Of a stretch of DNA of 42,883 nt, positions 107-29,900 are shown piece after piece. Location: positions 1 to 42,883 of IMG/VR virus record IMGVR_UViG_3300025102_000074; one strand, given 5' to 3'. Positions within the stretch are counted from its first letter, which is position 1. Every line of letters begins with the position of its first letter. Below the pieces are notes generated by a model. The model saw only the letters and a list, made by a program, of their open reading frames with translations, searched no databases and was not told the origin of the DNA. The stretch is from a virus. The position numbers and the translations under genes were made by a program.

Positions 107-3100
107 GTGTATGAAGATGCTGCTGACTTATTTGTGAGAGCACGTGACGCTCTCATCGATTCAGTCAAGGACGACATAGACATAGAGTCCTCGATATCCG
201 ACTACATACTGGCCAAGGCCAATTTGGAGGCGCACGACTTCACGCCCGGACACACTTGGCGTGAGATACTCTGCGACACTCTAGTCAAGAACGAAAAAGA
301 TGGCTATGGCTACATCCGACCGGGCAAGTTCGAGGCTGAGATGAGAGCCATAAGGAGGAGGAGGCATCCGGGTCACCTCCCCACGGGGCACAATCACTGG
401 TCAGGCAGAGTCATCAACAGCAGACAAGACCTCCCCATAGGCGTGACTCACGGCCTGCCAATCGACGTTGAGGCGAGATTCGAGAGATACCACGGCAGAG
501 CGGACGAGCATATCTTCTCACCCGTATTCGACCCCCTTGAGAAGAAGTCGATGACGAATGGCAACCCTAGGAAGATTGAACTGCTCGCAAGGAGATTCCT
601 CCCTGACGAGGACGGGAACTCCCGCGCCAAGCAGGTGAAAGATGCCGAGAGGCTCATCGAGGACTGGATGAAGAAGACCAACAGTCCCCATGTCAGGGAG
701 AACAAGCAGGGTTCCTACTCATACCCCTTACTCGGTCCCCTCGGCGACTCAGTGGACCAGTCCATACTCAGCCACGAGCACGACCTCTATGAGAGGGACT
801 TCAGGAGATGGAGCGAGGAGAATGAGCAGGGCGAGGACAACAGGGAAATCAGGAAGAAGCACTTCAGCGCGAGAGCACGGGACTGGATGGACAGGGACAA
901 CAAGGCCACCTTGGAAGAAGGTAACACCGACACTGAAAATATGCTTGCCGAATATTACTCAGAAACCCCGGAGGGTAAGAAGGTAGCAGAGAAGGAGAAG
1001 TCAATCTCCAACCACCCATCATACCTCAACCACCTCTCATTCATGATGGGCCTAGAGTGGCTCTCGCCGGAGGAGCGCACCAAGGTCATAGAGCACATAT
1101 CACCCGACAGTCACGGTAGCGACTCCAAGGAGCAGCATGTGAAGTTCGACGACGGTACGCGCCTCCCTATGGGTCGCCTCAAGAGGAATATGAGAATGAG
1201 AGGGGCCAACGCCCTCAGTCACGTCAGGCGTGGACCAAAGGCAGGGCCCCATAACGTCGCACCGGTGTGGTCGCAGAACCTACCATCCGACCCGCCAGAC
1301 AAGAGGGCACTCTTCTCAGCACTGGAATCAGCCTATCTCGTTCCAGCACAGGATAAGAATGATGAGGATAAAATCACATTTGACAGTAAAGAGGCGGAGA
1401 AGGCTGATATGGCCAAGAAAGACAAGTACTGCATCGAGACCTTCGGCAGGAAGTACTCCAATTGCACAACAGAGCAGCAGAAACAAACCGACAGTGAAGT
1501 CATAGGTCACAGCAGACTCATGGATGTGGCGATGAGAAACCTGCATGAGGCCTTCGGGGTGAAGATAGACAACCCGAAGGACGAGATATTCATGCACCTG
1601 CCAAATATAGACTCACGTGGTCTATCCAGATTCAATCAGGACGAGATGATGGATGAGATGAAGATTCTGACAGAATCCAAGAAGAAGGGCAACGTCGTTC
1701 CCAGAGACAACCTGCTGCACGCTCTGGGCTTCAACTCGAAGGGCGAGGAGATACCCGCAGGGGAGCATGGGTATCCAGAGCACTCAGGTCCCCTCATCAC
1801 AAACTCCCAACTGCAGTCCCTGCTCAGGAAGGAGAATGAGAACATCTCGTTGAGAGACAGGCAGAGGGAGGTTCAGGACATCCTGTCCATGTTCAGCACC
1901 AACGTCGGCTTCAAGGACACTGACGCCATACCGGAGGAGATTCAGAAGGCTATGGATATACTCGGTGGGAAGCACCTCGCCCATGACTTCGCCGCACCCT
2001 ATATGGAGGGAGGGCACGCAATCGACCAGCACATATACGCCACCAAGTTGCATGACCACCATCAGATGGATGATGAGAGCCTCATCGCCTCAGTCAATCG
2101 TCATAAGGAAAGCATCGTTCCCCAATCAATCAACATGGGCCTATTCGGACATCTGATTAGACCCGAGGCAGAGGCTCCTCTAGGACCTCATTACATGCAG
2201 CACATGTCCAACTTCCTCGGTGGAGACACCGGCAACCACGCTCTCTCGTCAGTCACCTCACCGGGGATAGCAGCACTCATCCATGGATTAAGACAATCAG
2301 AAGTGAATAGCAAGTTTGGCAGGAAGATGGGCATAGACCAGATGAATAACATGTTTGTGGATGCAGCCAACGAGGGTACTAGGAAGAACATACCATACGG
2401 CAAGTCGCTCGATATGCTGGCTCCCAAGGAGATAGACAGCGAGAAACTCGATGTGGGTGAAGATAGCATCTCGGAAATCGACCTATTCGCAGGCGGCGGT
2501 TCTGTCAAGAGAGAACAAGAGCCTGTGATACACACCTCCGGCGAGCAGAGAAGGAACAAGGTAGAGGCGATGAGGGTGGCCATGCTGCTGAGTTCGAGCG
2601 AGCGATTCCCAACCTCGGCTTCTACCCATGACTTCCCAGACTCCTCCATGCTCGACTACAACAAGAGATACGGCAATCTGGATGAGGAGGGAAGGGTGCT
2701 CACGGGCCGGAACAGACCAAAGAAATCCTTGTTCATCGACCAGTTGAACCTGAAGCATCAATACGACATACAGTCAATCAACGACGCCGCCAAGCATCTG
2801 GCGACCCTGCTGCCGGAGGAGGCGCTCGACCCCAGCAACCCGTCATTCGATGCCAACGTGCGAAGGCTGTTCCACGATGCCGAGCGTGCCATCCACACCT
2901 TGCCGAGCGAATACTGGGAGGGTGTGGGAGTGAGGCCCCTGACAGCGGACTACATGGTGGAGAATCAAACACAGACAGCGGAGCCGGTCTACCCATCACT
3001 GAGAGAGCGTCTCACCACCGGCGGAGGGGTGCCAATCACCAGACTCTCAGACGCATCCGAGATAGCGGAGCAACTCGGCTTCCCCTCCGACGAGGCGCAT

Positions 3101-5833
3101 ACGAGTCACATCCAATCCTACCTAGACACGATACCCGATGATGACGTCCACTTCATACAGTCGAATCACAATCTCATCAAGGAGCATGGCGACGTCATGG
3201 GAATAGACTCATCAATGTACGACTCGCATCTCGACGACCATCTCAAGGAGCAGCACGGCCATGGTGCCGGTGCGGGAGACGCTCCCCTTCAGGCGGAGAT
3301 GAGGAATCTCAAGAGCATGAGGAGCAGAATGGAGAAGGATATACGTGAGTGGGACTTAACCTCCGGTAAGCGGTTAGTAGAGATATACGAGAGATTAGAG
3401 GAATTAGAGCCACTTGTCGAGAAAGAAAACGACATAAGAGGTTTTGACGCTCTCCATAGCAGAGCAGCGCGGCACCTCGAGGAGAACAGGGCAGACAGGG
3501 CGAGCATGGTGCTCGAGAGGCTGGCCAGAAAAGTCGGGGTCGATGTGGACGCGTCCAACCCCAAGCAGGCACTGGAGGCAATCGGCGACAGCATATCCGA
3601 GATGCGCGGCGACTTGGGGTACGGCAGACAACTGCACGGTCACAGCGAGGCCGTCCAAGGAATCTTCAACAAAGACAGGAAGGAGCAGCATGCAGCCTTC
3701 GGCCTCAGCAGGATTCAAGCGCCGGTGGACCGAGAGACGAAAAACACATCTTTCATGAGAACCGGTCAGAAGCAATTGTACAGGAAGGGCCAGATGACAA
3801 ACAAGCACAACCAGACCCTCCACAACCTGCGTGACTTGGTGGTGTATGACCCGAGCAATGACACCGGCGCTGACGAGAGCACGAAGTTCGACACCCAGAG
3901 AATTTCATTCAACGCTCAACCGGCAATGCCCTTCGGCGCAGGCGGGGCGAGTATGATGCATTACTTCACAAGCGCCTCCAACAACATGCTGTTCGGTCAC
4001 CCTGTGCGTCCCACGCACGGCTTCGAGTTCGGGGACAACACGCCGGAGGTCGGGACCGAGACATTCGACCAGCGGCTCTCATCCGTGCCCCAGCACATGA
4101 TATCAGCGGCTCTAGGACCAGATGTCGCTGACTCCTATATCAGAAACGGTATGGACGACGTCTATCCGATTCCCGAGTTCGAGCCACCTGCACTCAGAGG
4201 TGGAGCCACCGGTGTTCCAATGACTCAGGACCCGAACGTCGGCAAGAGCATAGAGGACGCTGGACTGTACGCCACATACCTGCTAAACCCCGACCTCATC
4301 GTCAAGGCCGACTCATCACCGGAGTGGATTCCACCCATCCGCCCCATGCATCGCATCTTCAGGCTCAGGGACTTGGATGAACTCAGGGGCTTCACAGGCA
4401 GTTGGGTCGTCTCCAAGTGGTACGAAGGCGACAGGATAGTCCTGACCAAGAAGAAGAACAGGGTGAAGGCGTTCGACGAGGACGGCGGTCAGAGGGCCAT
4501 ACCCGACTGGGCCAAGAGCGGCGTCAAGAATCTCGGCGAGAAGGACTGCACCTTGGACGGCATCCTCGGCAAGGACACACTCCATATCATAGACATACTG
4601 CACTATGACGGCACCGACATCATGGATATGAACGTCAGAGAGAGGTTCAAGGTTCTCAGAGGCCAGTACGACAGCCATGAGCAGGTGCTGCTATCAGGCC
4701 CCCATGACACCCGCTTCACCGACGAGGAGGGTCTGGAGGATGCAGTCAAGACATTGCAGTCCGAGCACAGGACCCTCCTTCTCAGAGACGGCAAGAGCAC
4801 ATACATGCGCGGTGAGAGGAGACATCCCAAGTGGGTGGTGCTGAGACCCAACAGGGACATCAACCTCATCGTGCTTGACAGGAGGGGCAATGGTCCCTAC
4901 ACATACAGGCTCGGCGCAGGTCCGCTGCTGGATGGGGACGGTCTCGATGACAGAGCGGTCGACCACGACGGCAAGGTGTATCTCGACGCTGGCACGGTAT
5001 CCAGCCCCAAGCCCTTCGAGGAGGGTGACATAGTACGCGTGAGGTTCTCAGGCATCAAGAGGGAGAAGAAGGGGGGTCGTGACATATTCACAATCAACCC
5101 GTCGAAGTTGGTCGGCGAGGGAGAGGGCGAGTCCAGCGTGTCGATGGAGACTCTGTCACTGCTCGCCAAGAGTTTCCCACCAGTCCACCTCGCACACGGT
5201 ATAGACATAGAGGACAGAGCGATAGTCGTCACCCTCCCCACGGAGAGCCAAGTCACCTACACACTCGAGAAGAGCAGCCTAGGCCATTGGGTCCACTCAC
5301 CGACAACTCCGCTCTCTGACATGGGCATGGATACTTACAGCATAGAACTATCCGAGAGCCTCAAGCCCTTCTGGGGAGAGGTTGCCAGCATGATGCTGAA
5401 GGGTAAGATTGAGCGCCAGAAAGAAACTGAGAGCGAAGTAACCCCATCAGAGGAGCAGCAGGAGCACCACAGGCGCAAGGTGGAGGGTGAGAGCGCAGGT
5501 ATAATCAAGCCCGGAGACAAGAACATCCTACTCAAACCCAAGATGAAGAAGGCGCTGGAGGTCCTCGAAAGGGCTCTCGACGTGCTCGAGAAGGAGCAGA
5601 TGTTCAACACCACAGGAGCCAAGGGTCTTGGTATCGACTTGGGCGGAGGGACAGAGAGCCCTAGGGGCCCAACGAGACTGACCTCGGAGATGTCGCTCCC
5701 CGACTGGGACATGAAGGAGAGACCGGAGGAGGACCCGGAAGAGGAGTATCCGAAGGCGAGAGAACTCAGGAGAAGGAAGAAAGGCTCTAAGTCAAGCGAT
5801 TCTGAACATAAAACTAATCCAGAGCAGGAATAA
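107..5833 (+). CDS. 1,908-residue head-module protein with degenerate DNA-ligase-like domain
   Basis: GTG start at 107; an in-frame TAG at 101-103 rules out an earlier one, and GGTGG at 96-100 is a well-placed ribosome binding site. Residues 1-1400 match no family I recognise; they are hydrophilic and His/Asp/Glu-rich, with a long helical, coiled-coil-prone stretch near 1060-1160. Residues about 1410-1670 follow the order of an ATP-dependent DNA ligase: motif-I-like KWYEGDR (K1437-R1443), motif-III-like TLDGI (D1484), an IIIa-like IIDILHYDGTD run, motif-IV-like TLLLRD (1556-1561), motif-V-like WVVLR (W1576), then an OB-fold-like segment (about 1637-1671). Key residues deviate: the lysine is one position too far from E-G-x-R, DGE is DGI, the motif IV glutamate is missing, and the motif V lysines are V and R. 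The C-terminal 100 residues are highly charged. Position just before the prohead protease suggests an internal or head-associated virion protein; an active ligase is unlikely but not excluded. Confidence 0.75.
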   Translation: MYEDAADLFVRARDALIDSVKDDIDIESSISDYILAKANLEAHDFTPGHTWREILCDTLVKNEKDGYGYIRPGKFEAEMRAIRRRRHPGHLPTGHNHWSGRVINSRQDLPIGVTHGLPIDVEARFERYHGRADEHIFSPVFDPLEKKSMTNGNPRKIELLARRFLPDEDGNSRAKQVKDAERLIEDWMKKTNSPHVRENKQGSYSYPLLGPLGDSVDQSILSHEHDLYERDFRRWSEENEQGEDNREIRKKHFSARARDWMDRDNKATLEEGNTDTENMLAEYYSETPEGKKVAEKEKSISNHPSYLNHLSFMMGLEWLSPEERTKVIEHISPDSHGSDSKEQHVKFDDGTRLPMGRLKRNMRMRGANALSHVRRGPKAGPHNVAPVWSQNLPSDPPDKRALFSALESAYLVPAQDKNDEDKITFDSKEAEKADMAKKDKYCIETFGRKYSNCTTEQQKQTDSEVIGHSRLMDVAMRNLHEAFGVKIDNPKDEIFMHLPNIDSRGLSRFNQDEMMDEMKILTESKKKGNVVPRDNLLHALGFNSKGEEIPAGEHGYPEHSGPLITNSQLQSLLRKENENISLRDRQREVQDILSMFSTNVGFKDTDAIPEEIQKAMDILGGKHLAHDFAAPYMEGGHAIDQHIYATKLHDHHQMDDESLIASVNRHKESIVPQSINMGLFGHLIRPEAEAPLGPHYMQHMSNFLGGDTGNHALSSVTSPGIAALIHGLRQSEVNSKFGRKMGIDQMNNMFVDAANEGTRKNIPYGKSLDMLAPKEIDSEKLDVGEDSISEIDLFAGGGSVKREQEPVIHTSGEQRRNKVEAMRVAMLLSSSERFPTSASTHDFPDSSMLDYNKRYGNLDEEGRVLTGRNRPKKSLFIDQLNLKHQYDIQSINDAAKHLATLLPEEALDPSNPSFDANVRRLFHDAERAIHTLPSEYWEGVGVRPLTADYMVENQTQTAEPVYPSLRERLTTGGGVPITRLSDASEIAEQLGFPSDEAHTSHIQSYLDTIPDDDVHFIQSNHNLIKEHGDVMGIDSSMYDSHLDDHLKEQHGHGAGAGDAPLQAEMRNLKSMRSRMEKDIREWDLTSGKRLVEIYERLEELEPLVEKENDIRGFDALHSRAARHLEENRADRASMVLERLARKVGVDVDASNPKQALEAIGDSISEMRGDLGYGRQLHGHSEAVQGIFNKDRKEQHAAFGLSRIQAPVDRETKNTSFMRTGQKQLYRKGQMTNKHNQTLHNLRDLVVYDPSNDTGADESTKFDTQRISFNAQPAMPFGAGGASMMHYFTSASNNMLFGHPVRPTHGFEFGDNTPEVGTETFDQRLSSVPQHMISAALGPDVADSYIRNGMDDVYPIPEFEPPALRGGATGVPMTQDPNVGKSIEDAGLYATYLLNPDLIVKADSSPEWIPPIRPMHRIFRLRDLDELRGFTGSWVVSKWYEGDRIVLTKKKNRVKAFDEDGGQRAIPDWAKSGVKNLGEKDCTLDGILGKDTLHIIDILHYDGTDIMDMNVRERFKVLRGQYDSHEQVLLSGPHDTRFTDEEGLEDAVKTLQSEHRTLLLRDGKSTYMRGERRHPKWVVLRPNRDINLIVLDRRGNGPYTYRLGAGPLLDGDGLDDRAVDHDGKVYLDAGTVSSPKPFEEGDIVRVRFSGIKREKKGGRDIFTINPSKLVGEGEGESSVSMETLSLLAKSFPPVHLAHGIDIEDRAIVVTLPTESQVTYTLEKSSLGHWVHSPTTPLSDMGMDTYSIELSESLKPFWGEVASMMLKGKIERQKETESEVTPSEEQQEHHRRKVEGESAGIIKPGDKNILLKPKMKKALEVLERALDVLEKEQMFNTTGAKGLGIDLGGGTESPRGPTRLTSEMSLPDWDMKERPEEDPEEEYPKARELRRRKKGSKSSDSEHKTNPEQE

Positions 5834-5880: not shown

Positions 5881-7254
5881 GTGTTGTCACAACCACTACG
5901 TGCAACAGGGGAGTCAAATCTTCGGTTGCTCAAGGGTGGTGACCTCGTCGTCGCTGGATATGCCAGCGTCGAAGTGGTAGACAAACAAGGCGACAAAATA
6001 ACCAAGCAAGCACTCAAAGACGCATTCAAGAAATACATGGAGGACCCGAAGTTCAGAAACGTGCAACTAGCGCATTCAAACATACAAGTCGGGGAAGTAA
6101 TACCATCATACACTGATAACGAAGGGAGGTTCTGGAAAAGCGAGGTTGACGATGTCGGGATGTTCGTGGTAGTATCACTGCGAGACGACATCGAGAAAGC
6201 AAAGGAAGTCGCTGCGGAAATCAGGAAGGGAGCCCTTCGTGGATTCAGCATCGGTGGTCAGGCATTCAAAAGAGTGAGGAAGTCGGACCCCGAGCATGGA
6301 GACTACCAAGAAATCAGCAAGTTAGAACTACATGAGATTACAATCTGCGAACGAGGCATCAATCCAGAAGCGACGTTCAAGATTCTTAAAGAAGATAAAA
6401 AACAAAATAAGGTGACAAAAATGACAGAAGACAACGACGTAATGACGCAAATGACAGACGTTCTTTCACGTCTAGAAGGTCGTCTAGATGCATTTGAGAA
6501 AGGCATGCCTGCTGGACTCAAAGAGCACATGGAAGACAAGAAGGACGACAAGAAAGAAGAGAAAGATGACAAGAAGAAAACCGAGGACGTTGAAAAGTCC
6601 GAAGAGTACTCTGATGTCATCTCCTCAGAATATCTCGATTGGATGGAGAACACCCTCAAGTCCGCTGGTGTGGACATAACAGGTGCTCGAACCCACTTCG
6701 ACGATGTGGCAAAAGGCAACCTAGGCTCAGACCCCAAAGTTATCGGAGACGGTGGCTCCTACTTCGGTGGGCAAGCACCCGGTAGAGAAACTGAAGACGG
6801 CAAGCCAGAAGTCCCCAAGGCCGAGTTCGGCGCTGGTGGCAAGGGCAAGAAGTCCAGCAAAGTCGCAAAATCCGACTACCTGACCCCAGACGCTGTTTCC
6901 TCCGCTGACGTGGAAGCCGCATACGAGGTATACAAGGCCGCTATGCTCGAGGCAGAGTTGAAGAAATCCCTAGAAGGGGAGTTCTCACACCGCTACGAGT
7001 CAGAGCGCAGTGCTGAAATCACCAAGGCTGCGGCCCTAGAGTTCGACGCACGCGGTCCACTTGACGAGATACAGAAGTCCATCGCCTCTCTAGCAGAGCG
7101 CGTCGAGGCTATCAGTGCTCCAGCAGAATCCGGTGAGACAATCACCAAGTCCGCTGCTGTTCCATCCGTAGATGTTCCCTCCACTGCTGACCTAGCGTCA
7201 ATGTCGTGGGACGAGGTGCACAACCTCGCAACAAAGGCCTTCAGGGGGGCCTGA
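5881..7254 (+). CDS. Prohead maturation protease with fused scaffold region (HK97/U35-type)
   Basis: Residues about 15-165 form an HK97-type prohead protease, the serine peptidase that trims scaffold and capsid precursors inside the procapsid. The family landmarks are visible: LAHSN with H65, GFSIGG with S123, and LHEITICERGINPEA with E152. Residues 181-457 look like a scaffold: a Lys/Glu/Asp-rich helical segment (about 215-240), a Gly-rich linker, and helical segments to the end. A protease-scaffold fusion of this kind is well known (lambda C is an analogue). GTG at 5881 is the first start after an in-frame TGA at 5875-5877. Its ribosome binding site is poor (GTGAT almost touching the start), so a leaderless start or TTG 5884 remain possible. 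The major capsid gene follows after 23 bases, which fixes the context. Confidence 0.88.
   Translation: MLSQPLRATGESNLRLLKGGDLVVAGYASVEVVDKQGDKITKQALKDAFKKYMEDPKFRNVQLAHSNIQVGEVIPSYTDNEGRFWKSEVDDVGMFVVVSLRDDIEKAKEVAAEIRKGALRGFSIGGQAFKRVRKSDPEHGDYQEISKLELHEITICERGINPEATFKILKEDKKQNKVTKMTEDNDVMTQMTDVLSRLEGRLDAFEKGMPAGLKEHMEDKKDDKKEEKDDKKKTEDVEKSEEYSDVISSEYLDWMENTLKSAGVDITGARTHFDDVAKGNLGSDPKVIGDGGSYFGGQAPGRETEDGKPEVPKAEFGAGGKGKKSSKVAKSDYLTPDAVSSADVEAAYEVYKAAMLEAELKKSLEGEFSHRYESERSAEITKAAALEFDARGPLDEIQKSIASLAERVEAISAPAESGETITKSAAVPSVDVPSTADLASMSWDEVHNLATKAFRGA
6411..6415 (+). promoter_or_regulatory. Internal ribosome binding site for scaffold start
   Basis: GGTGA lies five bases before an in-frame ATG at 6421, at exactly the point where the protease domain ends and the scaffold-like region begins. 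This is a better start signal than that of the full-length gene. Confidence 0.5.
6421..7254 (+). CDS. Free scaffold protein from an in-frame internal start (nested)
   Basis: An internal ATG (residue 181 of the protease-scaffold protein) has its own GGTGA at spacing 5 and would yield a 277-residue product beginning MTEDND. It contains only the charged, helical, Gly-linked scaffold portion and no protease residues. Lambda uses the same arrangement, in which Nu3 scaffold is made from an internal start within gene C to give many scaffold copies per protease. The start-site geometry is seen in the sequence; the function is inferred from position and composition. Without the internal start, scaffold and protease would be made one to one. 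Confidence 0.5.
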   Translation: MTEDNDVMTQMTDVLSRLEGRLDAFEKGMPAGLKEHMEDKKDDKKEEKDDKKKTEDVEKSEEYSDVISSEYLDWMENTLKSAGVDITGARTHFDDVAKGNLGSDPKVIGDGGSYFGGQAPGRETEDGKPEVPKAEFGAGGKGKKSSKVAKSDYLTPDAVSSADVEAAYEVYKAAMLEAELKKSLEGEFSHRYESERSAEITKAAALEFDARGPLDEIQKSIASLAERVEAISAPAESGETITKSAAVPSVDVPSTADLASMSWDEVHNLATKAFRGA

Positions 7255-7277: not shown

Positions 7278-8408
7278 ATGGCACGAGATTACGTACGAAC
7301 GATAACAGACATGGAGCGCTACTACTATGGCGCTGGAAACGCAATGGGATACTCCTACTCAGGCAGTGAACTATTGAAAGCGGATGCACCAATGCTGTCC
7401 ACGACTGCTGGTACATACCAAGCAATCTACGGGCGCAAGGTCTGGTCGCAGTTGAACCAAGAGTTCAACGCTTTCAGCATCCTACCAAAGAGGCCTTGGG
7501 ACAGGTCGGGATGGAGAGTCATCACCGGTAAGCCCAACGGCGGAGCACTCCACGGCGGCGTAGCAGAGAACGGCACTCTTCCTGAAACAGTGAAGCCTGT
7601 CTTCCAGCACGTTGCTGCAAAGCCCAAGACGATTGCACACACCTTCGACATGTCGGAGACCGCAATCTTCCTCGCCGACAAGGACGACGGCCTCGGAGAC
7701 ATCCGAGCAGTCATGAAGGAAGAGATGGGTAAGCACCACGCTGAGATGGTCAACAAGATGCTCCTCACGGACGTCACGACCGCTGCTGGAAACAACTTCG
7801 AGTCTCTGGACCGAGTTACGACTGGTAACACGAACATGGTGTCTGGTACTCACTATGACGCTGCTGACGAGGACATCTACTCCATCGACAGAAGCGCTAA
7901 CACATGGTCCTTCGCTGAGGACAACGCTGACTCAAGCAGCGCTAACAGAACACTCAGCCTCGACCATCTTGACACGCTATTCCAGCAAATCTGGGAGCGC
8001 GGTGGAAACCCGAAAGTCATCCTAACCGGATATGACACTCTGATGAGACTACAGCAACTGCTACAGTCCCAGCAGAGGTTCATGGAGGAGAAGAGAGTGA
8101 CCCCAACCTACAACGGCGTCAAGGGTGTTCCCGGTATGGAAGCCGGATTCATCGTCGCTACGTACAACGGTGTCCCAATCATCCCGACCAAGGACATGCC
8201 TAAAGACGGTATCAGCAGGATGTACTTCCTCGACACAGACTACCTATACTTCAGCACTGCAATACCAACGCAGTACTACGAGAGTGGAATTGAGACAGGC
8301 GACCCATTCGCCATCAACAGGCTCGGTCAGGAAGGACTGTACCGAACCATGGGTGAGATGTGGACGACTTTCTTCGGCGCACAGGGGAGTGTGAGAGACC
8401 TCCAGTGA
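7278..8408 (+). CDS. Major capsid protein (HK97 fold)
   Basis: A 376-residue product that directly follows the protease/scaffold gene, as in most HK97-type viruses. The usual landmarks are present: a helical N-terminal part, an E-loop/P-domain region around 75-130 (a glycine-rich GGALHGGVAENGTLPE stretch, then a long KPKTIAHTFDMSETA strand), a spine-helix-like segment near 140-165 (AVMKEEMGKHHAEMVNKML), and a C-terminal A-domain with a nucleus of GLYRTMGEMWT. The start ATG at 7278 is fixed by a strong GAGGTGAT at 7265-7272 with spacing 5; the out-of-frame ATG at 7274 is not used. Length fits the family. No N-terminal delta domain is evident, as expected if scaffold is supplied by the upstream gene. 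Confidence 0.88.
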   Translation: MARDYVRTITDMERYYYGAGNAMGYSYSGSELLKADAPMLSTTAGTYQAIYGRKVWSQLNQEFNAFSILPKRPWDRSGWRVITGKPNGGALHGGVAENGTLPETVKPVFQHVAAKPKTIAHTFDMSETAIFLADKDDGLGDIRAVMKEEMGKHHAEMVNKMLLTDVTTAAGNNFESLDRVTTGNTNMVSGTHYDAADEDIYSIDRSANTWSFAEDNADSSSANRTLSLDHLDTLFQQIWERGGNPKVILTGYDTLMRLQQLLQSQQRFMEEKRVTPTYNGVKGVPGMEAGFIVATYNGVPIIPTKDMPKDGISRMYFLDTDYLYFSTAIPTQYYESGIETGDPFAINRLGQEGLYRTMGEMWTTFFGAQGSVRDLQ

Positions 8409-16771: not shown

Positions 16772-17971
16772 ATGGCAGCAGCGAACGGAACACCAATCAG
16801 ACTCGTGCAGGACAATGGCAACCTCATCGAACTCAATGCCACCAACATCGCCTTAACGGTTGACAGGGGCGTGACCCCTCACTCACTACCTGCCCTTGGT
16901 GGTAGAAGGTTCAGCATAGACCTCAACAAGAACAAGTCCCTCATCGTCGTGGAGGGTGTGTTCACCGACGACAATCAGGAGAGTGGTGCTAGGAGTGCAT
17001 CTGGCCTCATCGACTTCTCGGTATCACAGAGAGGCGCTAACGAAGGTGACTTCAATCACGTCTTCAACACCAGCAACAACATCGACAACCTCCTACTCAA
17101 CAGCGACAACAGAGTCAGGCTGAGGAACTCCGCTGGTGATTTCTTCAACCTCTACTTCGAGCATACAGCGGGGACGCCGGGGTACAACACGGTGACCGAC
17201 AAACTGCGCATCAAGAGCACTGATGGTACTAGAATCACCGCAGTTCAGTTCACGCAAGGAGTCGCTGACTGGATAAACAACGACGTGACGGACATCTCAG
17301 CGACCGTGGTGAACAGCCTACTCAACCAGAACTCGCTTGGTATCAACAGCGCTTTGAAGATAACACAAGACTCCACTGGCACTGCTGGTAATTACTCCTC
17401 CTACCCTGATTTCCTATTCCTGAACAGTGGCTCCTACGAAGGGAGGAAGAGGGTACCATACGTGGAGGGTTTCAGCGGTGGTGTCAATTCCACTGCCAAG
17501 AGCGCCGGTGACAAGGTCATGGACCTCTACGGCATCATGAACAACTCAAGTAGGAATATTCCTGCAGTATCAATAGGAGGTGGCGCTTCTATGGTTACTG
17601 CAGCAGGAGCAACTCTTGCTACGGGAGGTCTGTCGTTATTCGCTGCTATCGCTTTTGGAGGTCTAGCAGTCAACTCATTGGCAGGTGACCATGACTACAT
17701 CATCGGCATCCAGATACCCTACAACTCCAAGATACAGGCTGGTGGTGACACCTACGTCGCCCGGAACTTCTTCATGCCCACTGGGAACAAACTGAAGGCT
17801 GAGGATAAGGGGAGTGAGGGAAACACCCTACCTGCCAGTACGACCTTCGACACTGGTGACAACTTCACTGGTATACAGGGTACTGTCACCAAGATGGACA
17901 CCTTCTACGACGCTGGTGAGAGTGTGTATGGGTTCAGGATGGACTTCTCACCTATCGACAACATGATTTGA
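16772..17971 (+). CDS. Distal tail protein with long uncharged Gly/Ala segment
   Basis: A 399-residue protein, ATG 16772 with GAGGT at 16760-16764. The N-terminal 80 residues are beta-rich (IRLVQDNGNLIELNATNIALTV...LPALGGRRFSIDLNK) and look like a tail-tip ring domain (Dit-like position, between tape measure and tip protein). Residues about 265-305 hold 40 residues without a charge, dominated by Gly, Ala, Val and Leu, long enough for one or two membrane passes. The C-terminal 90 residues are beta-rich and end FSPIDNMI. Codons in the Gly/Ala segment shift towards A/T-ending forms. A Dit-like or membrane-penetrating role is inference. Confidence 0.6.
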   Translation: MAAANGTPIRLVQDNGNLIELNATNIALTVDRGVTPHSLPALGGRRFSIDLNKNKSLIVVEGVFTDDNQESGARSASGLIDFSVSQRGANEGDFNHVFNTSNNIDNLLLNSDNRVRLRNSAGDFFNLYFEHTAGTPGYNTVTDKLRIKSTDGTRITAVQFTQGVADWINNDVTDISATVVNSLLNQNSLGINSALKITQDSTGTAGNYSSYPDFLFLNSGSYEGRKRVPYVEGFSGGVNSTAKSAGDKVMDLYGIMNNSSRNIPAVSIGGGASMVTAAGATLATGGLSLFAAIAFGGLAVNSLAGDHDYIIGIQIPYNSKIQAGGDTYVARNFFMPTGNKLKAEDKGSEGNTLPASTTFDTGDNFTGIQGTVTKMDTFYDAGESVYGFRMDFSPIDNMI

Positions 17972-17973
17972 AC

Positions 17974-17985
17974 GGTGAAGAGATG
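17974..17985 (+). promoter_or_regulatory. Ribosome binding site deciding the giant gene's start
   Basis: GGTGA at 17974-17978 is four bases before ATG 17983. The frame is open back to TTG 17968, but that codon lies before this site, so ATG 17983 is preferred. Confidence 0.6.
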
Positions 17986-20900
17986 GCTGTGCTGGGGAGA
18001 ACGAATCACGCATTCTTCTTCGATGGCGTCAGCGACAGCATCATCATACCACAGGGCAGGCACACCAAACTCGGTGACCTCACACCTGACGGCAAGACCA
18101 TGTCAACTCTGCTCTCGAGCAACCCTAGCGGCTCCCAGACTACCACCTTGACGAGCGGGCTGTTCGGCAACCAGTTCTGCATAGAGGCTTGGGTGCAACC
18201 GGACTGCGGTGGTGTCATTGTCCAGAAGCAGGACCAGTTCTCACTAAGCATAGGCAACGTAGACACCCCCGGACCAGCGGTCTTCACCGTCACGCTCGAC
18301 AGACCCACGGGTATCGAGGTCGTCAGACTAAGCACAGCCGTCGAGGAGACCAACGGGTATGACGGAACCGTCTACCCACCCTCCACCTTCGGCGGACCGC
18401 ACGATTCCTACAATCGCTTCAACTCTTCATACGACGACGCGACCTCACTCAACATCAATCACAGGCCACTCATACACGTCGTCGCTGCCCTACGTAGTAA
18501 AGACGTGGTCCTTTACATCAATGGTGAGTTGATGGTCAAGAAAGCGCTCAGGGACAGCGGTTTCACACTTAACAAGAGCGACCATCATATCTTCGTCGGT
18601 GGTAAGGGAGGCCAGTTCAGGGGAGTCATGGAGGGTCTGCACCTCTCCAACAGGTTCACAGACTCGTTAATCAACAGGAACGCACCACTCGTCGATGAGA
18701 ACACCCTCGTGCTCTACAGGTTCGAGGAGCCAATCGCGCCCGTTCAGGGACTGTTCGAGATTAACCCCTCCTTCAGCACCGTCGGTGGTCTCACCAAGAT
18801 ACTGTTCGCCACAGCCTCCGATGCCTCTTCACTGGCAAGCACACTCACTGGTAATACGGTCACTTCGGGAACCGTCGACTTCACGGCATCACCGTACTCG
18901 ATGGGCAACTACAAGGTCTTCGACGCACACACCACACCGGGGACAACGACGACCAGAAGCGTCGCGCATGTTCCCTACAACCTACTCATCAATGCTGGTT
19001 CTATCAACCCGAAGACGAAGAAGCCCAACCAGAAGCCGCCAGAGAGGGTAAGGCTACACTCAATCAACGACATAGACAGCACTCCCTACATGCTCGTCTC
19101 GAGCATACACATAGACTTCGTCAACGGTGATGCCAATGGTCTGAGGACAGCATTGCACACGAGGACGAACGACGTCGACGACTTCTTCGTGGTAGTGGGC
19201 TCTGACCTGCTGATAGACAGCGGTACTGGTAGCCCGTACCAACCACTCCACTACTCCACTCAGATGATAGACAGGACCGGTCAGATGATTATCGACGAGT
19301 GTCGATACGACAATCACGGCATAGTGTACTCAAGCAGGATGTCCACGACCGACGTCGACACCGACAACCCGTTCGCAGTAGCGTGGGACACGACAGTGGT
19401 CGATGAGAAGTTCAAGATTGGACACAGCGGTAGGCACTCGCTCAATCACGTCGACGGTCATCCATTCCTACGCATGCTCCCAGACCCCAGCGAGGAAATC
19501 ATCAACCAGACGATAGACGCTGGAGTCGACACAATAGACGTGTATTATGATGCTGCCTTAAAAGGAGTAGAGAACCAGATAGGAATAAACGCCAGAGTGG
19601 ACATTCTCCAGAACACCGGTGACTTCACTATCAATAATATTACTAGCACCAGCGAAGTAAATACGATAGTGGGGAACGGACTGCCTACTGGCAGTAAAGA
19701 GGTCATTGCCATAGGTGGTACAGCACTCGACATCCTACCTTTCATGCTCAGGGGACCGGTTCCCACTGAACTTCCCTCAGTGGCTGCTGACATAGACAGC
19801 GAGACGAGGAGGTACCATCTCAGGCCCAGCAGGAACTCGAGAGTGGCCATACTCCACGTCCCCAGCCTGTCAACTTCCAATCTCGCACCCTTCGTCGAGG
19901 TCCACTACAACGCCATCGACATCACCGGTAAGTCGATGGAGGCCACTGGTGACTCTGGAACAGCGACTCCCTACCTCATGGTCGAGAAGACCGTGCCCGC
20001 TGGCGTCACCCCGGTCGGGGGAGGCAGCACCGTGTACGACGTCATCAACACGGCCATCGGCAATGGCAATCTCACTCTACACGCGCCCGGTGGGTACATC
20101 GAAGTCACCATGAGCAACTCGGATTTCAACAGCGTCATCTCCAAGCCCAACTCCCTCGTCGGTGACACGAGCGAGGGGTACGAGTCGGATGACGAGTTGG
20201 ACGAGAGGTTCACGCCTTTCTCCGATGGCTCAACCAACTACACACCGAGGAGCGACTCCTCCGCTCAACCGAACACCCCTCCCAAAATCGTCACGGCGAG
20301 TCACACCACCAGTGACACTCACGAGAGCGTCTTCCACCGAATGCTCATTAACACCGTGTCAAACAGCAAGCAGAAGACGCTGACTGACAAGACCATCTAC
20401 TCGAGGAGAGAGCCATCGACGGTGGTCTCAAGTCCATCGAACGGTGAGTTCGACAGCGGCAGCACGTCCAGCAACACACATATCCACGAGTTCTTCGATG
20501 TGATTGACAATCACCCGATTACCGATAGCAATACTTCCAACATGAGAATATACCTTCAACCCAGTGACCGCAGAAGAGTCAACCAGATGACTCATCTAAG
20601 GAGCACGCTGGATGATGTTACCGAGCCCAATATCACGACCCTACTCTACCACATGAGCAGGGCGAGGGTGCGGTCCGTGGAGGAGAAGGAGAGCAATGGT
20701 GTCAAGAGCACAGTGATTCAGTGTCGTGGTCTCAGCGAGGCAGCAGTCAGCAGGACCGTCTCCAAGACCGGCGCAGGTAGCCCCGACTCCCATATCGTGA
20801 AAGAGATAGAGCCCAATGCACCAGTGGTCACCGTCACGCTCGGTGGCCCCGGTCAAGGTGCATCAGACATCAAACCCACATACGACCCCAGTCCGCTATC

Positions 20901-23900
20901 CCGCCTTCCCTTCTCCACGCAGAGAGGATACCACGTCAGAACCGAGAGCGTGGCGTACAGCACAGCCAAGGTGGCCACGCTCAACGTCAAGCCGATGAAC
21001 AACGAGTCTCCCAACATGGCGAGTTGGGGAACCTACGGTTTTGCGAAGAAGGGACGCTTGTACCTCGATGACGGTGCAAGTGCCCTCTATGACGCCAAGA
21101 ACGGAACGGCTTTCACTTTCACCGATAAGGCATCTAAGACTGCCACCGTCAATGGCGGCACCGGTGTCATCGACAACATAGTGGGTGGTACATCCGACCT
21201 CGTTGTTGGCATGCTAATAGACCATAGTCTGTTTGGTGGTGAGGCTAGAATACTCAGAATAGACTCCTCGACTCAAGTGACCTCTGTCTCTCCTGCCGCT
21301 GGCGGAGGTACTAGCAATAATCAAACTGTAGGTTTTATCCATTCGGTCAACTCCAGTTCCCAGACGCAGCGCTACTTGGATGCCAACGGAACCAACTACG
21401 GCACGTTCGACAATTGGCTCAAGGCAACGGGCAAGGCATCCAACGTCACATTGGGAGCGACTGCCGACCCAATCACAGTCGTCCTGTCATCGGAGCCTGA
21501 CTTCGGCACCGAGTCACTCAGCGAGGATGGTAGTACCGTGAACGACCGCATGTTCCAAGGGGGCGGCAAGGACGTCAACCATGACTATCAACTCGGCACC
21601 CAGTACGCGAGCACCAGAGCACTCGTGGAGATACCCATATTCACGAACCAAGTCTTCGACGACGACATCGCAGGTGTGTTCCCCGGACCTGACAACTCCC
21701 TGAGACTCAGCGTAGACGCCACTTACACCGCGCACACGTGGAACCCCACGCCAGTGGGCAGGCGTCCGGGCTCGCCGTTCAACAGCGACAGGGCCAAGCA
21801 CTCGGCCTACGCCCTCGCAGTCAGCAAGAGGAACGCAGGTAGGAGGGCATTCATCAGCAAGAACATAGTGGTGGATGGAAGCAACCTGCAACTCCACGTC
21901 AGTGACATCACCATCTTCCCATCCTCATCCGCCATATCAGGCGCCTACACCGAGAAGTATCAGGGGATAGACAACAGACCTAGGTTCAGAAGGGTGTTCT
22001 TGGAGAGCGGCGCTTGGGCCCTCTACACGGAGGCGAATGCAGGTGGCTACCTCGTCATACCCGACAAGGAATGGGCAATGACCAAGCAGTTCAGGAGAGA
22101 GTACAGGGTGGGGATGCCGGTCTTCCTCAGTGGTGGAGTCCCGAGCGAGTCGCTCACACCTATCGGAGACGAGCCGTACACCCCCAGCGTCGCATATGAG
22201 AATCGCTCCGAGCACTACCACGACACTGCCAGTGTGAAGACGCAGGGCGGCAATGTCGACTACGGGCTTAGGCAATACGTCAGTGCAGTCGAGTTCAAGG
22301 CCGGTCCTGAGAGCAACCCCCACGCTGCTCGCATCGTCCCCAAGAGGGCGACTGGTGTGATAGCCACAGTCAGGGGCTTCGTCGATGACGGTGGGCCCGG
22401 TGGTATGGGGATAGCAATCGTGTCACTCTCATCCGACGAGGACTTCTCCACATTCCCAGACTTCGGCTTCGACAGCCAGACCTCCCTCGACTTCAGCGTG
22501 GGTGACTTCCTCTATGAGGTGGAATTGGACGACGCCGGGACGACGAGGAGGCTGCACTACTACGGTAGGATAAGGACCGCTGACAGCCATGACGTGCCTG
22601 CCAACTCCATCGCGCTCGGCTTCTACAACCCAAGTGCTGGGTCCGTACCTTCGTATCTGACAGAGGGGAACCGCATCACCCTCAGCAGGAGGAGCAGGGC
22701 CATCCTCAACTTCGACAGGTCGAACATAAACGCCGTCAACAACGCATCAATCTTGGACGAGGAGTATGACGCATACTGCATAGAGGCTACTGGGTGGACC
22801 CTCACAGCCAGTTCCACCAGCAGCGCATCAGTCAGCCTCTTCTCAGTCGGTACCAGTCCGTTGACGTCAAACACACTGGGACCGAATCTCAGGAAGGGGG
22901 ACCACCTGTTCGTTAAGGCAAGCGGGAAGTTGACTCCAATCGGAACCGTATCCAAGATGACGACGAGGGACCTATCGGGTGGTACTGACTACACGGTCAC
23001 CCTCACCGCCAATGCAGCGACGACGGTAACTACCCAACCCCTCTTCATCTCATTCAGCAACGCCTTCGTGGAGGACCCCGACGCCATACTAAACAGGACA
23101 TGGGTCTACCCATACGCCTCTGGCGGCTTCAGGAACGGAGACACCGTATGGTCGAACATGACGCTCAACAACCCACACGCTATGGAGGGACTCTTCGCCA
23201 AGAGCAGGGGGGTCCTGAACGAGGCGAGGGTATGGAAGGGATTCACAGGCGGCGCTGCCACGCTCAGCGACGAGCCCCGCAGCAGCGTGCCACTGGAGAA
23301 CTTCCTCATCGGCAAGACATGCATAGAGACTGCCCAGAACTACGCGCAGCACGTGAACAAGACCATCGAGGAGAACTACAAGGCGCTGGGCCTCAATGCC
23401 TCCGACGCACCCACGGTGGCATACGTCGACCCATACCTCGCTGATGACGACCACACCCGAGTGCTTCTCTATGACGTGGCCCATGACAGGGAGTTCATCG
23501 CCTTCCAAGACATCTTCATGCAGGTGCAGACAAGTGCCAAGAACGTCGAGATAGGGTGGCCGAGGAAATTCATCAAGGACGGCTCCCTGATTGACTTGGC
23601 AGAGTACGTCGCCACCAACACAGGGGGAGGACCATCTTGGGCCACCACTCAGATAGACGTCGCTAACGGGTTCCCCTCGCAGAATCCCTACCTCCGTTCC
23701 ACCCAGCAGTCCAAGTTCATCGAGTCAGCCTACGCCCATGACGTCGCCAACAGGATAGGTACAGACGTGCTGACTCCCCTGTCAGGCAGTTTGCCTTCGA
23801 GCATGGCAGCATCGTCAACCAGCGCGACCTCCCCATCGATATACGGCAAGGCGCATGGACACCACTCCCACACGGGCTACTCACTGTCAGGTGGCCTCTC

Positions 23901-26900
23901 AGACTACGCGCTTGGTGACAGTTCGCAGATGAGGACGTCGGATGAGACGGTGCTGCCTCTCTTCGCCACAATCAAGCACGAGTTCTCCAGAGTCAGGTCT
24001 TTCGGTGACCTCTTCGTCACTGAACTCAAGAAACTCAGGAAGGGCACATCCAATGCTTCTCTGAGAGAGCCGAGCACATTCCACGACACTCCAGACGGCA
24101 CACGGGTCATCCCCGCATTCCTCGCTCTCAAGGGCATTAGAGCCAACACCCTCGACCTCACCTCCCATGAGGAGAGCAGGTTGCAGCACCTACCGCAATG
24201 GAAGCAGATGGAGTTCATCAGGAGACTGGACATAGACGTCGGCTCCCTGTCCCTCGCAGAGGATGTCACAGACATAGAGAGCGCAGCCCATGAGATGGTT
24301 CGTATCATCAATCAGGCTGGTGCGACCAAGGCAAAGCGGGTCTTCGATGCCAACACCACCGGCAGTGCACACGACCCCGCCCCTTGGTGGGACGCTGGCG
24401 ACGCATTCGAGTCGAGTGACAGGGGCACTCACATGGGCTACCTCAGAGCGCACATAGGGAGGCAGGTTCAGGATTTGGACGGTAACCCCGGATACACCGT
24501 CGTTATTCACAGCACTGTTCCCGGTGCGAGCGGTAGGAACTTCTGCGTATGGCTCGACAACAGCAAGGGTCAGTCGTCCTACAAGCCCCAGTTCATCGTG
24601 GGTCACGGTGGCAGGTGGAGGAACTTCTGGGGCATGCCAGACGAGATAGAGAACGAGAACATGCACCCAGCACCATTACCACTCAACAAGCACGGTAGGC
24701 CGTTCGCGCCAATCACCACGCTCCATCAGTTGATAGACGCTGAGTTGACGGGAATGGACTCGATGCCATCGCTCGATTTCTCATCACGTGACAACAACAC
24801 GGAGTCGCCTGTCCTCAGAGCGATATCCAACGCGGTGGGTGGCTCTGGTAGCAACACGGTCGCCGCTGACTCCTTCGAGCCCAAGTCCACTGACAAGAGC
24901 CTAGTAGAGGGACTCAGAACCGGCACCAACGCTGTCGGCAGGGTCAACTTCGGTGGCTTGGTCAAGGCAGGAGTCCCCGGCTGGTCGCCAGTCGCAGGAC
25001 AGTGGGGCATGGGCCCGAAGGGCGACGACTCCTTCGCAAGGCGATACGGCAACAACACTATCACCACGTACGGGGACTATGTACCGGCAGCCGACATCAA
25101 GGAGGAGAAGTTCGGCACATCCCCCGTCTACGGCATAAAAATGACCGACCACAGGGGGAAGAACCACACCGTCCGTCTCATCTACAGGCAGATGGGGCAG
25201 CCCTTCGCAAATGAGAACACCATCCTACCGAGCACGATAGAAGATGAGGTCTGCATCTTCTTCGATGACAGGACCAACTCACAGGGAGGCTTCACCATAG
25301 GTGGGCACATGGTCGGTCAAGGTGACGCCACAGGTGGGATGACCGGCTTCTCCGGTGACACGGAGAAGGCCTTCTACGGTGGCAAGTGGAATCCCGTCGC
25401 CGCCCGTGACGTGGCCATCAAGTGTAACGTCACATACCTCCATGTGTCGAAGAGCCTCAAGGTCATCTTTGAAGACCCATACGACGACACGAGCACACTC
25501 ACACACCCTGACATGCTAGGTTACCTCGGGTTTCCCAAGAAGGACGGTAGGGTGCAAATCACAGACTCAGCGGGGAACGGGAACACAGGGCTCACTCTCT
25601 CGTACACGTCGAGGAGCACGAACGATGCCTCTGGTGAGCACCGCTTCCAAGGGATAGAGAGCGAGTTCACGTCTGACCAGTCTCTGACTGCGAGACTGAT
25701 ATCACCCACGATGAACTGGACCACCCTCATCACCGACGAACTGATGGCGGTAGCGACAGCAGCGGCCATCAACAACCACGGTATAAACAACCCAGAGGGA
25801 GTAGTGTTCGACTGCAGGGACATGTATGCAACCAACGGTCAGACCTTCGGGGAGATGGGCGTCAGAGCAGATGCCATCAGAATCAGGGCCTACAACCCTG
25901 ACAGATTCGTCAAGCCGATAGCCCAGTTCTTCACAGCGAGCATACACCCCGACTTCGGCATCAAGGCCGCCCACCTCGAGTACGGCGAGGTCGAGAAGGC
26001 GGACGCCGGCTCTGATGGTGTCTGGTCGTTCGGCACCTCGAGGGCGAACACGGACGGCAACATAGACGCGGGTAGGGACATAGACTGCGGATACGTTCCC
26101 AACACCCTGCTCCAAGTGACGAGCAAGGCGAACGGTCCCAACACGAACACGAGGACGCCCCTGCTCATCGACTCATTCAACGAGGAGGTCAACGGGACGC
26201 TGATAGAGAACTGGTCGAGGAATCTGAGAGGTAGTCAGTTCACCGACCACAGCGGTGACCATATACTGCCCTGCGTCAACAACCCGATGCTGCGATACAC
26301 CAGCGTCACCACTGCTTCTCAAAGAATATTCATCGACACCAACACTGCACAAGACGAATTATGGGGCTTCCTCGCTCCTGCCACCCTAGCGAACGGAACA
26401 GTCCCCTCGTTCGGTGAGAGGAAGAAAATCTACCTGTTCCCAGAGGCCAGTGCAGTCGTCGAAGGTCACTCAGGCGATGACCAAGGCGATGTGAGAAACT
26501 TGAAGACGCTGATTTGGGACAACGACACTGCCACCTCTGAATGGGTCACAGCATTCGCCGGTGATGGGACATCAGGAGACACCACGGACACCGCCTATCA
26601 CACTGGTGTGATATCTCACTATGGCAATCTCAGGAGTACCGAGGTATGCGGCCTCCGCTCGCTCGGCAGCGTGGACTCGAGTCCCATACACCACTTCCGT
26701 GGTGGGAGGAGCAGCGTCGACAACAACGTGCCCGTGTTCTTCGGCGGCGGCTTCAGCGGCGTGGTGCTCGATGTCAACGACGGTACCATGAACGACTACT
26801 CGGAGTTCTACACCCATCCCTACGCTGCTGGCCCAACTGGTGTGTCAGGCATACAGAACGCCAACGAGATTGTCACCAGCCATGCCATCCTCGATGCCAA

Positions 26901-29900
26901 TGCCATGCTCTCATTCTTCCCCGGCACCGCCCTGCTCAACCAGCACCGTGGCAGCATCATACCACCCGCCCACAACAGGGACAACGTCCTCTCACCTGAC
27001 TTGGACGACTCCAATGGCGCAATCAACAGCGGTCACCCCAACAGCGCACCATACACCGCAGGGGTGGTCGTGCAGAAGCCAAGCCCACTGGTCCTGCGCT
27101 TCGCCCATCCCACGGCTAGGTACGACGACCACATAACCAGCACCGAGAACAAGACGACCTACATCGTCTTCGGACCCGGTCAGGCATTCCCATTCACGCA
27201 GGAGGTGGCAGACAGCAGCAACATGACGGGGGCTGACTCAGTGCACCCGCACACAGGCGCTGTCCTGACCGTGGGCAACACTTGGTCGAAGGTGCCCGGA
27301 AACATAGTCCCCAACCCGATAGAGAACCAAGACGGGAACTACATGCCGGAGGACGCTGATTATCACAGCGCCTACCACGCCTTCCACTGGCGCACCCCAC
27401 TCAACTGGGAGCCAGCCACCGGCAAGCCACTCTCCCTCTACTCGAAAATAAAACAGCGACCGGAAAACGGCAGGATGTACGGGCAGTACTTTAATGACGA
27501 TAGTATCAGTGCTAGTTTCAGTGCCTCGGACCTGACCATAAGGAGGGGCATGCCCTTGAGACACAATCCCCTCATCGGCTTCGGCATAGCCACTGGCGCC
27601 GACATGGTGTGGCACATGGACGGTGGGTACCACCCCGGTGGGCACTGGATGGACAACCAGATTGCAGTCAACCCCAGCCACCCCGATGGGGACACCACCC
27701 TGTCCGTGTGGGGACCGACGACCCAAGTGCATCCCACGGCCTTCCGTGTCGCTGGTATGCTCACCACGAAGGTGCTCGGCTACACAGCAAGCGAGGGGCA
27801 ACTAGTCGCTGCTGACGTCGACAGCGAGTACATCATAGTCGATGCGACACGCTGTCAGAACGGCGAGGAGTTGGCAACCGTGGTCGGTGCTGCCATCAAC
27901 ACCTTCCCCGGCAAGGGCGCTCTCAAGGCAATGGGAGGGACTCACATGCCCTCGATGGGCAACGCCATGAGACAGGACAGATACGGCTGGGTCGAACTCG
28001 AGACATTCAGCGCGTATCAGGTATCAACCGACCCCTACTATGTGGAGTACTCCAGCAGCACCCACACCACACAGAACGAGTTGGAGCAGATACCGGCATG
28101 CGGGTGGATAAAGGCCAGTACCAGCGGCGGTGCTGACGTACCTGCTTGGGGATGCTACCACTCGAGGGAGGTCTTCGATGATGGTGGTACTTGGAAGGTC
28201 AGGTTCTACCTCGCGCCAAACAGGATAACCAACAGCGAGAAGTTCGAGTCCTACGTCACGCTCAACGACGGTTCCACCGCTGTCAGCAGCCTCGCTGGGT
28301 CCATCTACGTATGGAGCAAGGCTGGTGTCCATCGCTTCAACAACGTCGCAAGCACCACACGCGACCACATGTGCCAAGCCCACTTCTCAGGGCTCGTCGA
28401 TGCGGTCGACAGGACGAGGCCCATAGGCTCAGTGGGCTGGCATGGTGAGCGGTACTCCTACCTCAACAGCCTACGCGTCGACACCGAGGGCTACGGTGCT
28501 GGTCTCGGTGCTTGGCACAGCGAACTCGGCTTCTCCCCATACGGCAGCGCATCCAGCGTACTGAGCGGCTTTGGCGGCATACCCACCACAGCACCTCTTC
28601 CACGCTCACCCGAGAGCACACCACCCGTGGACGGTCTCGGGAGCGCATTGATGACCTACATCAACAACCCATACTCCTCGTACACGTACACTACGAACAG
28701 CCTCTCCTACTCCCGCAAGGACACCGATGACAATGCTCCCCATACCCTCCATGCCAAGCCATCCCACTACGACATAGACACCACCTTCCCAGAGGAACTC
28801 GTTCACCCACAGGGACTGTTCAGCAAGGCGTTCATCGTAATCGCATGCGAGTCGGAGTTCGCCCTGATAGCGAAGAAGGACAGGGACTCATCCACCTGCG
28901 TCGGTGACATGCTCATGGTCAAGGGTCAGGGGTCCCCATCGCTACGCTACGCTGGTACCACGAGGTGGGACGAGAGGTTCCACGCCCAAGACCGCTTCAT
29001 CGCACCAGCACACGCAGGTCCCAACGTCGAGGCTCTGATTGTGAATGACACTGCTCTAGAGACCGACTCCACCGACACGGGTGTCTATACGTTCCACACG
29101 GGCAACGTGACGGACCTCCGCCTTGAGAACGCCACACCAGACAGGGCGAAGACAGGCGACTTGGTGACGGACCTCGACTTCTCCCTCGGCTCGAAGAACT
29201 TGGAGACCGGCATCACCGCAGAGCGAAACGTCGTGCCGGAGTTCTATACCAGCGGTTCGTACACGTCTGATGGGGACTTCCCCACTGACTTCTGGAAGGG
29301 AGACATACTCGCATACGACCTGTACAAGAGGTCATCAGCCCTGAACTTCTCCACCGAGCACATCGTCTGGAAGAGGATGGACGGCGGTAATCTCTCACTG
29401 CCCGCTCTCAACGCTAGGGGGCTCGGTGCGGTGCCTTGGACCACGAGGGTCGCCAGCAGCACGGCTCATACGAGCGGTGAGAAGTTGTATGGCAACGTCC
29501 GCTTCTCCTTCGAGACCACCAACAGCGCCATGATGCCGGTGCTGCAGGCGCAGGAACTCTCACACCCGCAACTCGCTGAGAAGCATGATGAGACCATTGG
29601 TGGTATCCTCACTATCCCCAACGAGGAGATGCAGTTCGACGAGGCGGTCGTCGTCGATGACTCGGGCCAAGAGCATACCCTGCAGGGTGGAAGCCCGCTC
29701 GGTACCGTGATACGCTCGTTCATGGTGCTCAAGGACAGGGGAGTGGAGGGCAACGCCCCAGCCTTGGCCAACAGCGGCAACACTCCCTCCATGATGGTGC
29801 AGTTGCCAGACCCCGACACCATACCCGGAAATATCGTGGTCCGCTCCGGCTTCGACCCGGTGCAGGCGTATCAGACTGAGTCATTCGGCAGCGGTGGAAT

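Follow-up and report, generated by a model that had tools for sequence, protein, structure and literature searches.

Two described proteins are close to the case presented here: the cap-binding domain of snurportin-1 is related to capping enzyme but has no catalytic activity and is retained for binding, and T4 RNA ligase 1 (gp63) serves at the same time as a tail-fibre attachment factor. Magroviruses, whose hosts are abundant archaea of the ocean, are among the most abundant viruses there and have been described as encoding an almost complete replisome, with an ATP-dependent DNA ligase counted in their replication set (PMC10160649, PMC10768690, PMC12999244). Clade 1 magroviruses of marine group II archaea carry thermosome genes (PMC5332604), a kinship of magrovirus capsid and portal proteins to those of Druskaviridae haloviruses has been reported (PMC8651126), and no aoguangvirid or magrovirus is in culture (PMC10768690). 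Here, we analyzed a stretch of 42,883 bases (the window; IMG/VR record IMGVR_UViG_3300025102_000074, positions 1 to 42,883) with respect to one gene encoding a 1,908-residue protein between the genes for portal and prohead protease. This protein contains a domain related to ATP-dependent DNA ligases whose catalytic residues have been replaced, in the following called pseudo-ligase. As far as we found in the literature, a DNA ligase core as pseudoenzyme in a viral head-module protein has no earlier description.

Single-sequence searches with the window protein matched an NCBIfam DNA ligase family (E 3.8e-8) as well as the ligase of Thermococcus sibiricus (PDB 4eq5, E 3.4e-5). The Pfam family PF01068 matched it at E 6.9e-4 and 19.8 bits, which is below the curated cut-off of 26.2 bits; this cut-off was exceeded in 12 of 20, 11 of 14, and 6 of 12 homologous records of three sets, and all 38 aligned homologues were matched by the family (best E 2.3e-7). 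Structure prediction and fold search, proposed as a check in a preliminary description of the window, led to the same family. The AlphaFold2 model of residues 1375-1885 has a mean pLDDT of 61.5, with values mostly of 70-87 within the nucleotidyltransferase and OB parts, and its comparison with the PDB by Foldseek returned ATP-dependent DNA ligases as 50 of the 50 matches listed (best E 2.6e-11). The TM-scores of these matches are low (0.2-0.3), presumably caused by disordered ends in the model and a variable placement of the two lobes; therefore, the argument for a ligase fold rests on the E-value. Within the predicted model, a nucleotidyltransferase (adenylation) fold with an OB domain was found, the latter missing in one clade of homologues. 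Judged by sequence comparison and the predicted model, residues ~1395-1690 descend from the core of an archaeal ATP-dependent DNA ligase, consisting of nucleotidyltransferase and OB domain. The window's Pfam score and the moderate confidence of the model would be in line with an accidental resemblance to ligases, an explanation we regard as hardly conceivable and rejected, since independent profile, sequence, and fold searches converge on one family. The presence of the domain, which had been placed at positions 4330-5130, was confirmed, its extent being slightly larger, at about 4289-5185.

The best sequence and fold matches are archaeal/eukaryotic ATP-dependent DNA ligases of the LigA type (4eq5, 6wbo, 2cfm), with which the pseudo-ligase has the nucleotidyltransferase and OB fold as well as the order and spacing of motifs in common. 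The motifs reported before, i.e., K1437, DG-I (1484-1486), IIIa, IV/V, and the OB-like strands, were all found where they had been described. Unlike the LigA-type enzymes, the pseudo-ligase is devoid of the catalytic lysine, the glutamates of motifs III and IV, the first lysine of motif V, and a detected N-terminal DNA-binding domain, and it is fused to ~1,394 unrelated residues.

To describe these replacements across the family, IMG/VR homologues were collected by domain (80 kept of 177 relatives) and by capsid protein, resulting in 106 distinct C-terminal sequences. The catalytic register was taken from a profile alignment to 4eq5, which places W1438, and not K1437, in the column of the catalytic lysine, thereby confirming that K1437 is one position off. 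This column is occupied by W (66), F (13), Y (12), M (7), H (4), and Q (4) and in no case by K, so that a homologue with an intact motif I lysine (K-x-D-G-x-R), for which the preliminary description had suggested looking, was found in none of the 106. Glutamate is equally absent from its positions in motif III (I or V, rarely T, A, or L) and motif IV (L, I, V, or M only). The first lysine of motif V is replaced by L, M, V, or I throughout, and the second one by Arg in 89 of 106 sequences. In parallel, Gly and Arg of motif I are invariant and the Asp of motif III is retained in 105 of 106. The alteration of catalytic residues noted for the window is thus a family-wide loss, and by sequence the ligase-derived domain is catalytically inactive.

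A ligase that is still active by means of the shifted lysine K1437, or of another nucleophile, might be considered in view of the retained motif residues and of K1437 itself, which is present in 67 of the 106 sequences including that of the window. In the remaining 39 this column is A, V, I, T, S, L, or H and the shifted lysine, therefore, cannot be essential; its K/not-K state switches at least two times on the homologue tree with the gene being retained. The universal lack of the motif III and IV glutamates and of the first motif V lysine, the deletion of the OB domain in one clade, and the ligase DNA-binding domain PF04675 of archaeal LigA, which had no match in 13 large records, point in the same direction. 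We rejected this explanation on the basis of the 106 sequences and consider it very improbable.

The ligase-like domain is under strong purifying selection and not decaying, as dN/dS amounts to 0.035-0.084 for pairs whose synonymous sites are unsaturated, the N-terminal part reaching 0.12-0.29. Conservation peaks in the loop of motifs IV-V, S-x-Y-M-x-G-E-x-[RK]-H-P-K-W, with an entropy of 0.19 bits versus a domain mean of 1.11 bits; in the window protein, residues 1555-1580 read R-T-L-L-L-R-D-G-K-S-T-Y-M-R-G-E-R-R-H-P-K-W-V-V-L-R. On a tree made without genuine ligases as outgroup, one clade with a support of 100/100 (L157, L159, L163, L169, L178, L183, L185, and L198) has deleted the OB domain (about residues 1583-1693), retaining the dead nucleotidyltransferase core and the segment downstream of it. 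On average, the domain is close to neutral in net charge or slightly negative. The ligase-derived fold, the family-wide catalytic loss, and the purifying selection provide good support for the pseudo-enzyme reading put forward in the preliminary description.

The placement among head genes, which had also been proposed, holds in all homologous loci showing both neighbors, where the pseudo-ligase gene is located between portal and prohead protease in the order portal, 118-residue protein, 113-residue protein, Cys-rich protein, pseudo-ligase protein, protease, and capsid. In the window, the portal gene is beyond the left edge and its position was seen in relatives. Archaeal-type replisome genes and an HK97 head module within a genome of the ~90-110 kb class were found via a relative of 95,224 bases (G001), which is 99% identical in the domain and carries TerL, portal, PolB, clamp loader, thermosome, ERCC4 nuclease, and PD-(D/E)XK nuclease. 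The capsid and portal proteins are 33% and 28% identical to their counterparts in Druskaviridae haloviruses. These data fit a magrovirus relative (Poseidoniales), the assignment being made by the gene content of the relative and the capsid/portal kinship.

Within this group the gene appears to be a constant component. Each of the 67 loci that were retrieved through the capsid protein and extend sufficiently upstream contained it, and a wider capsid scan recovered it in contigs at ≥73% capsid identity extending far enough upstream; no such gene was found at 33-50% capsid identity, the range of the haloviruses and other archaeal viruses scanned. No homologue was detected in the deposited phage genomes searched, and a pattern scan covering 84,980 prokaryote species, each represented by one genome, yielded no cellular relative.

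The presence of a further ligase was evaluated by a PF01068 search of 46 records, 12 of which have a size of 85-109 kb and are thus near the magrovirus genome size of 90-110 kb (PMC12999244). The pseudo-ligase was the only ligase-like frame in 45 of them, the exception being a record that starts only ~1.5 kb before the capsid gene. NAD-type ligase (PF01653) and RNA ligase (PF09414), like PF04675, had no match in the 13 large records. For a group A magrovirus, genes for an "ATP-dependent DNA ligase" and a prohead protease have been reported on one short matched stretch (PMC7318539), and this ligase is very probably the pseudo-ligase gene of the head module. We infer the same for the ligase published in PMC10160649, PMC10768690, and PMC12999244 (genomes ON649702 and OR863078), an identification made for group A at least and not extended to every magrovirus group. 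The published enzyme is described as a replication enzyme, whereas the sequences investigated here represent a dead ligase in the head module; with this identification, the ligase credited to the replisome of magroviruses probably lacks catalytic activity. If a dead head-module domain is the only ligase-like gene, the statement on the replisome needs correction and a host ligase is required. Automated annotation would then have masked an unusual protein of the structural module, raising the question of what an abandoned ligase active site binds in virus assembly.

As the most plausible reading, with a probability of roughly 0.6, we propose that a ligase core was captured, lost its chemistry, and was kept within a large head-module protein as a module that binds but does not catalyze. 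A magrovirus ancestor would have acquired this core, nucleotidyltransferase plus OB, from an archaeal ATP-dependent DNA ligase, and adenylation and sealing would have been lost. With its gene invariably located next to those for portal and protease, the protein may function in head assembly or in packaging of the genome, or it may be an internal protein of the virion, possibly being made beside the portal and then processed or enclosed at maturation. The preservation of the surface at the former active site points to a binding partner; this face, centered on the loop S-T-Y-M-x-G-E-R-R-H-P-K-W, may bind a conserved one, which is the least certain step of the proposal. DNA is the ligand one would guess because of the ligase ancestry. 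Due to the OB loss in one clade and the neutral charge, protein partners are as likely, and we consider a conserved head protein of the virus about as probable a candidate as duplex DNA or the end of a DNA molecule at the portal. Several points weigh against this proposal. The OB domain, which is the DNA clamp in ligases, is gone in one clade, and a domain charge of about neutral to slightly negative disfavors general DNA binding. Gene position suggests a structural role and does not prove one, the virion location and the ligand are putative, and the N-terminal part has no recognizable fold in PDB and viral fold searches. Furthermore, the records are contigs and a second ligase may be located outside of them or be too diverged for Pfam.

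The same observations are compatible, to different degrees, with other functions of the domain. It could serve purely as a platform on which other proteins (portal, protease, scaffold, or capsid) dock, binding neither nucleic acid nor nucleotide; with portal and protease as conserved partners encoded on either side, an OB domain that can be lost, no net positive charge, and a conserved C-terminal peptide resembling a docking motif, this is a possible alternative that we consider clearly less probable than the binding module proposed above, since conservation peaks at the strand-loop of motifs IV-V beside the former active site, the place expected for a DNA or nucleotide ligand, and since the motif I Gly and Arg as well as the motif III Asp have been kept. 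More doubtful still is a narrower function as non-catalytic sensor of DNA ends or nicks in the virion, along the lines of the nick- or end-binding part suggested in the preliminary description, in which the former ligase core, located near portal and prohead protease, would grip the packaged genome end or terminase nicks as a plug or checkpoint and leave ligation to the host.

A domain binding a nucleotide or a modified end non-covalently, in analogy to snurportin-1, is improbable. The Pfam family Snurportin1 m3G cap-binding (PF21974) was matched by 10 of 38 members and the precedent as such exists, but the scores are weak (below cut-off with a best E of 0.0063 among the 38 members; 13.9 bits in the window versus a cut-off of 27), DNA ligases and no capping enzymes appeared among the fold matches listed, and we know of no cap-like target in archaea. 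We judge it similarly improbable that the protein acts in replication or repair and is merely encoded in the head module, in which case the replisome ligase of the literature would be right in context and not in chemistry. DNA ligases are the only recognized relatives of the domain and the published lists group a ligase with replication genes (PMC10160649, PMC10768690, PMC12999244). However, the gene is always found on the head strand flanked by portal and protease, while PolB, clamp loader, ERCC4, and nuclease genes of the 95-kb relative form a separate block on the strand opposite to the head genes.

In comparison with known systems, the m3G cap-binding domain of snurportin-1 resembles the pseudo-ligase as a binding domain that belongs to the covalent nucleotidyltransferase superfamily and is enzymatically dead, including the weak Pfam matches, but it descends from capping enzymes, is cellular, and binds RNA caps. 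T4 gp63 provides a precedent for a ligase that additionally functions in virion assembly; unlike the pseudo-ligase, it has retained its ligase activity and is neither fused nor degenerate. In Druskaviridae haloviruses (HVTV-1 gp115, HCTV-1, HCTV-5), a large multi-domain protein with an enzyme-derived domain is likewise encoded between portal and prohead protease. HVTV-1 gp115 (L126:10623-14564) harbors a zeta-toxin domain and a C-terminal ADP-ribosyltransferase domain, and zeta-toxin proteins are also encoded in the same interval in L129, L130, and L131; these halovirus proteins comprise ~1,200-1,300 residues and have an intact-looking P-loop. The portal-protease interval looks like a slot for enzyme-derived passengers. 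Homology between the pseudo-ligase protein and the zeta-toxin/ADP-ribosyltransferase proteins of haloviruses was not detected (hhalign E 0.59 and 0.081, probability <1%). In the same region, the gp115 neighbor gp113 of HVTV-1 contains an HExxH metalloprotease-like motif, and a distant capsid relative (41.5% capsid identity) carries a phosphoribosylamine-glycine ligase gene (GARS, ATP-grasp; L291:5726-7012) between portal and capsid genes.

The fusion to a long N-terminal part had been recognized before and was confirmed, comprising ~1,394 residues without a fold match. Its first 1,060 residues were predicted as a helical model of moderate confidence (pLDDT 70, pTM 0.61) that matched neither PDB nor viral folds, and profiles of three N-terminal pieces gave chance-level matches only when compared with the PDB. 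At the other end of the protein, the peptide G-L-G-I-D...E-S-P-R-G-P-T...L-P-D-[WY]-D-M (window 5627-5713, and homologues) is nearly invariant despite its low-confidence prediction, and a docking motif or a protease-processing signal is possible. The coordinates of all features are compiled in Table 1.

Table 1. Features of the pseudo-ligase locus and adjacent head genes in the window (aa, amino acid residues)
Feature	Positions	Strand	Basis
Pseudo-ligase-bearing protein, 1,908 aa, GTG start	107..5833	+	
N-terminal ~1,394 aa, fast-evolving	107..4288	+	No sequence or fold relative; mostly helical AF2 model of aa 1-1060; dN/dS
Degenerate nucleotidyltransferase domain, aa ~1395-1583	4289..4855	+	Pfam, NCBIfam, PDB, fold searches
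Motif I remnant S-K-W-Y-E-G-D-R, aa 1436-1443; W1438 in catalytic Lys column	4412..4435	+	
Motif III remnant T-L-D-G-I-L-G, aa 1482-1488; DGE Glu replaced by Ile/Val in nearly all homologues	4550..4570	+	
Motif IIIa region HIIDILHYDGTDIMDMNVRERF, aa 1493-1514, segment with the best match to ligases	4583..4648	+	
Motif IV-V region RTLLLRDGKSTYMRGERRHPKWVVLRP, aa 1555-1581; hyperconserved loop inside	4769..4849	+	
OB-like domain, aa ~1584-1693; lost by one clade with high support	4856..5185	+	
Conserved C-terminal peptide LGIDLGGGTESPRGPTRLTSEMSLPDWDM, low-confidence prediction	5627..5713	+	
Prohead (head maturation) protease, next gene downstream	5881..7254	+	PHROGs 1.1e-14; synteny
Major capsid protein, HK97 type	7278..8408	+	PHROGs 2e-61

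Further observations concern the surroundings of the gene. In the 95-kb relative, the frame directly before the pseudo-ligase homologue of 1,869 residues (G001 21208-21786) encodes a 192-residue protein with three tandem zinc-ribbon-like repeats CPSCGGKMEKGSCVKS, which is weakly conserved among relatives. Downstream in the window, an open reading frame of 5,517 residues with a TTG start (17968-34521) is probably a giant tail or adhesion protein, its sole match being a weak LamG-like one near the start. The G+C content is 54-57% in the lineage of the window (with L002-L009) and varies from ~35 to 55% in related magroviruses of identical gene order.

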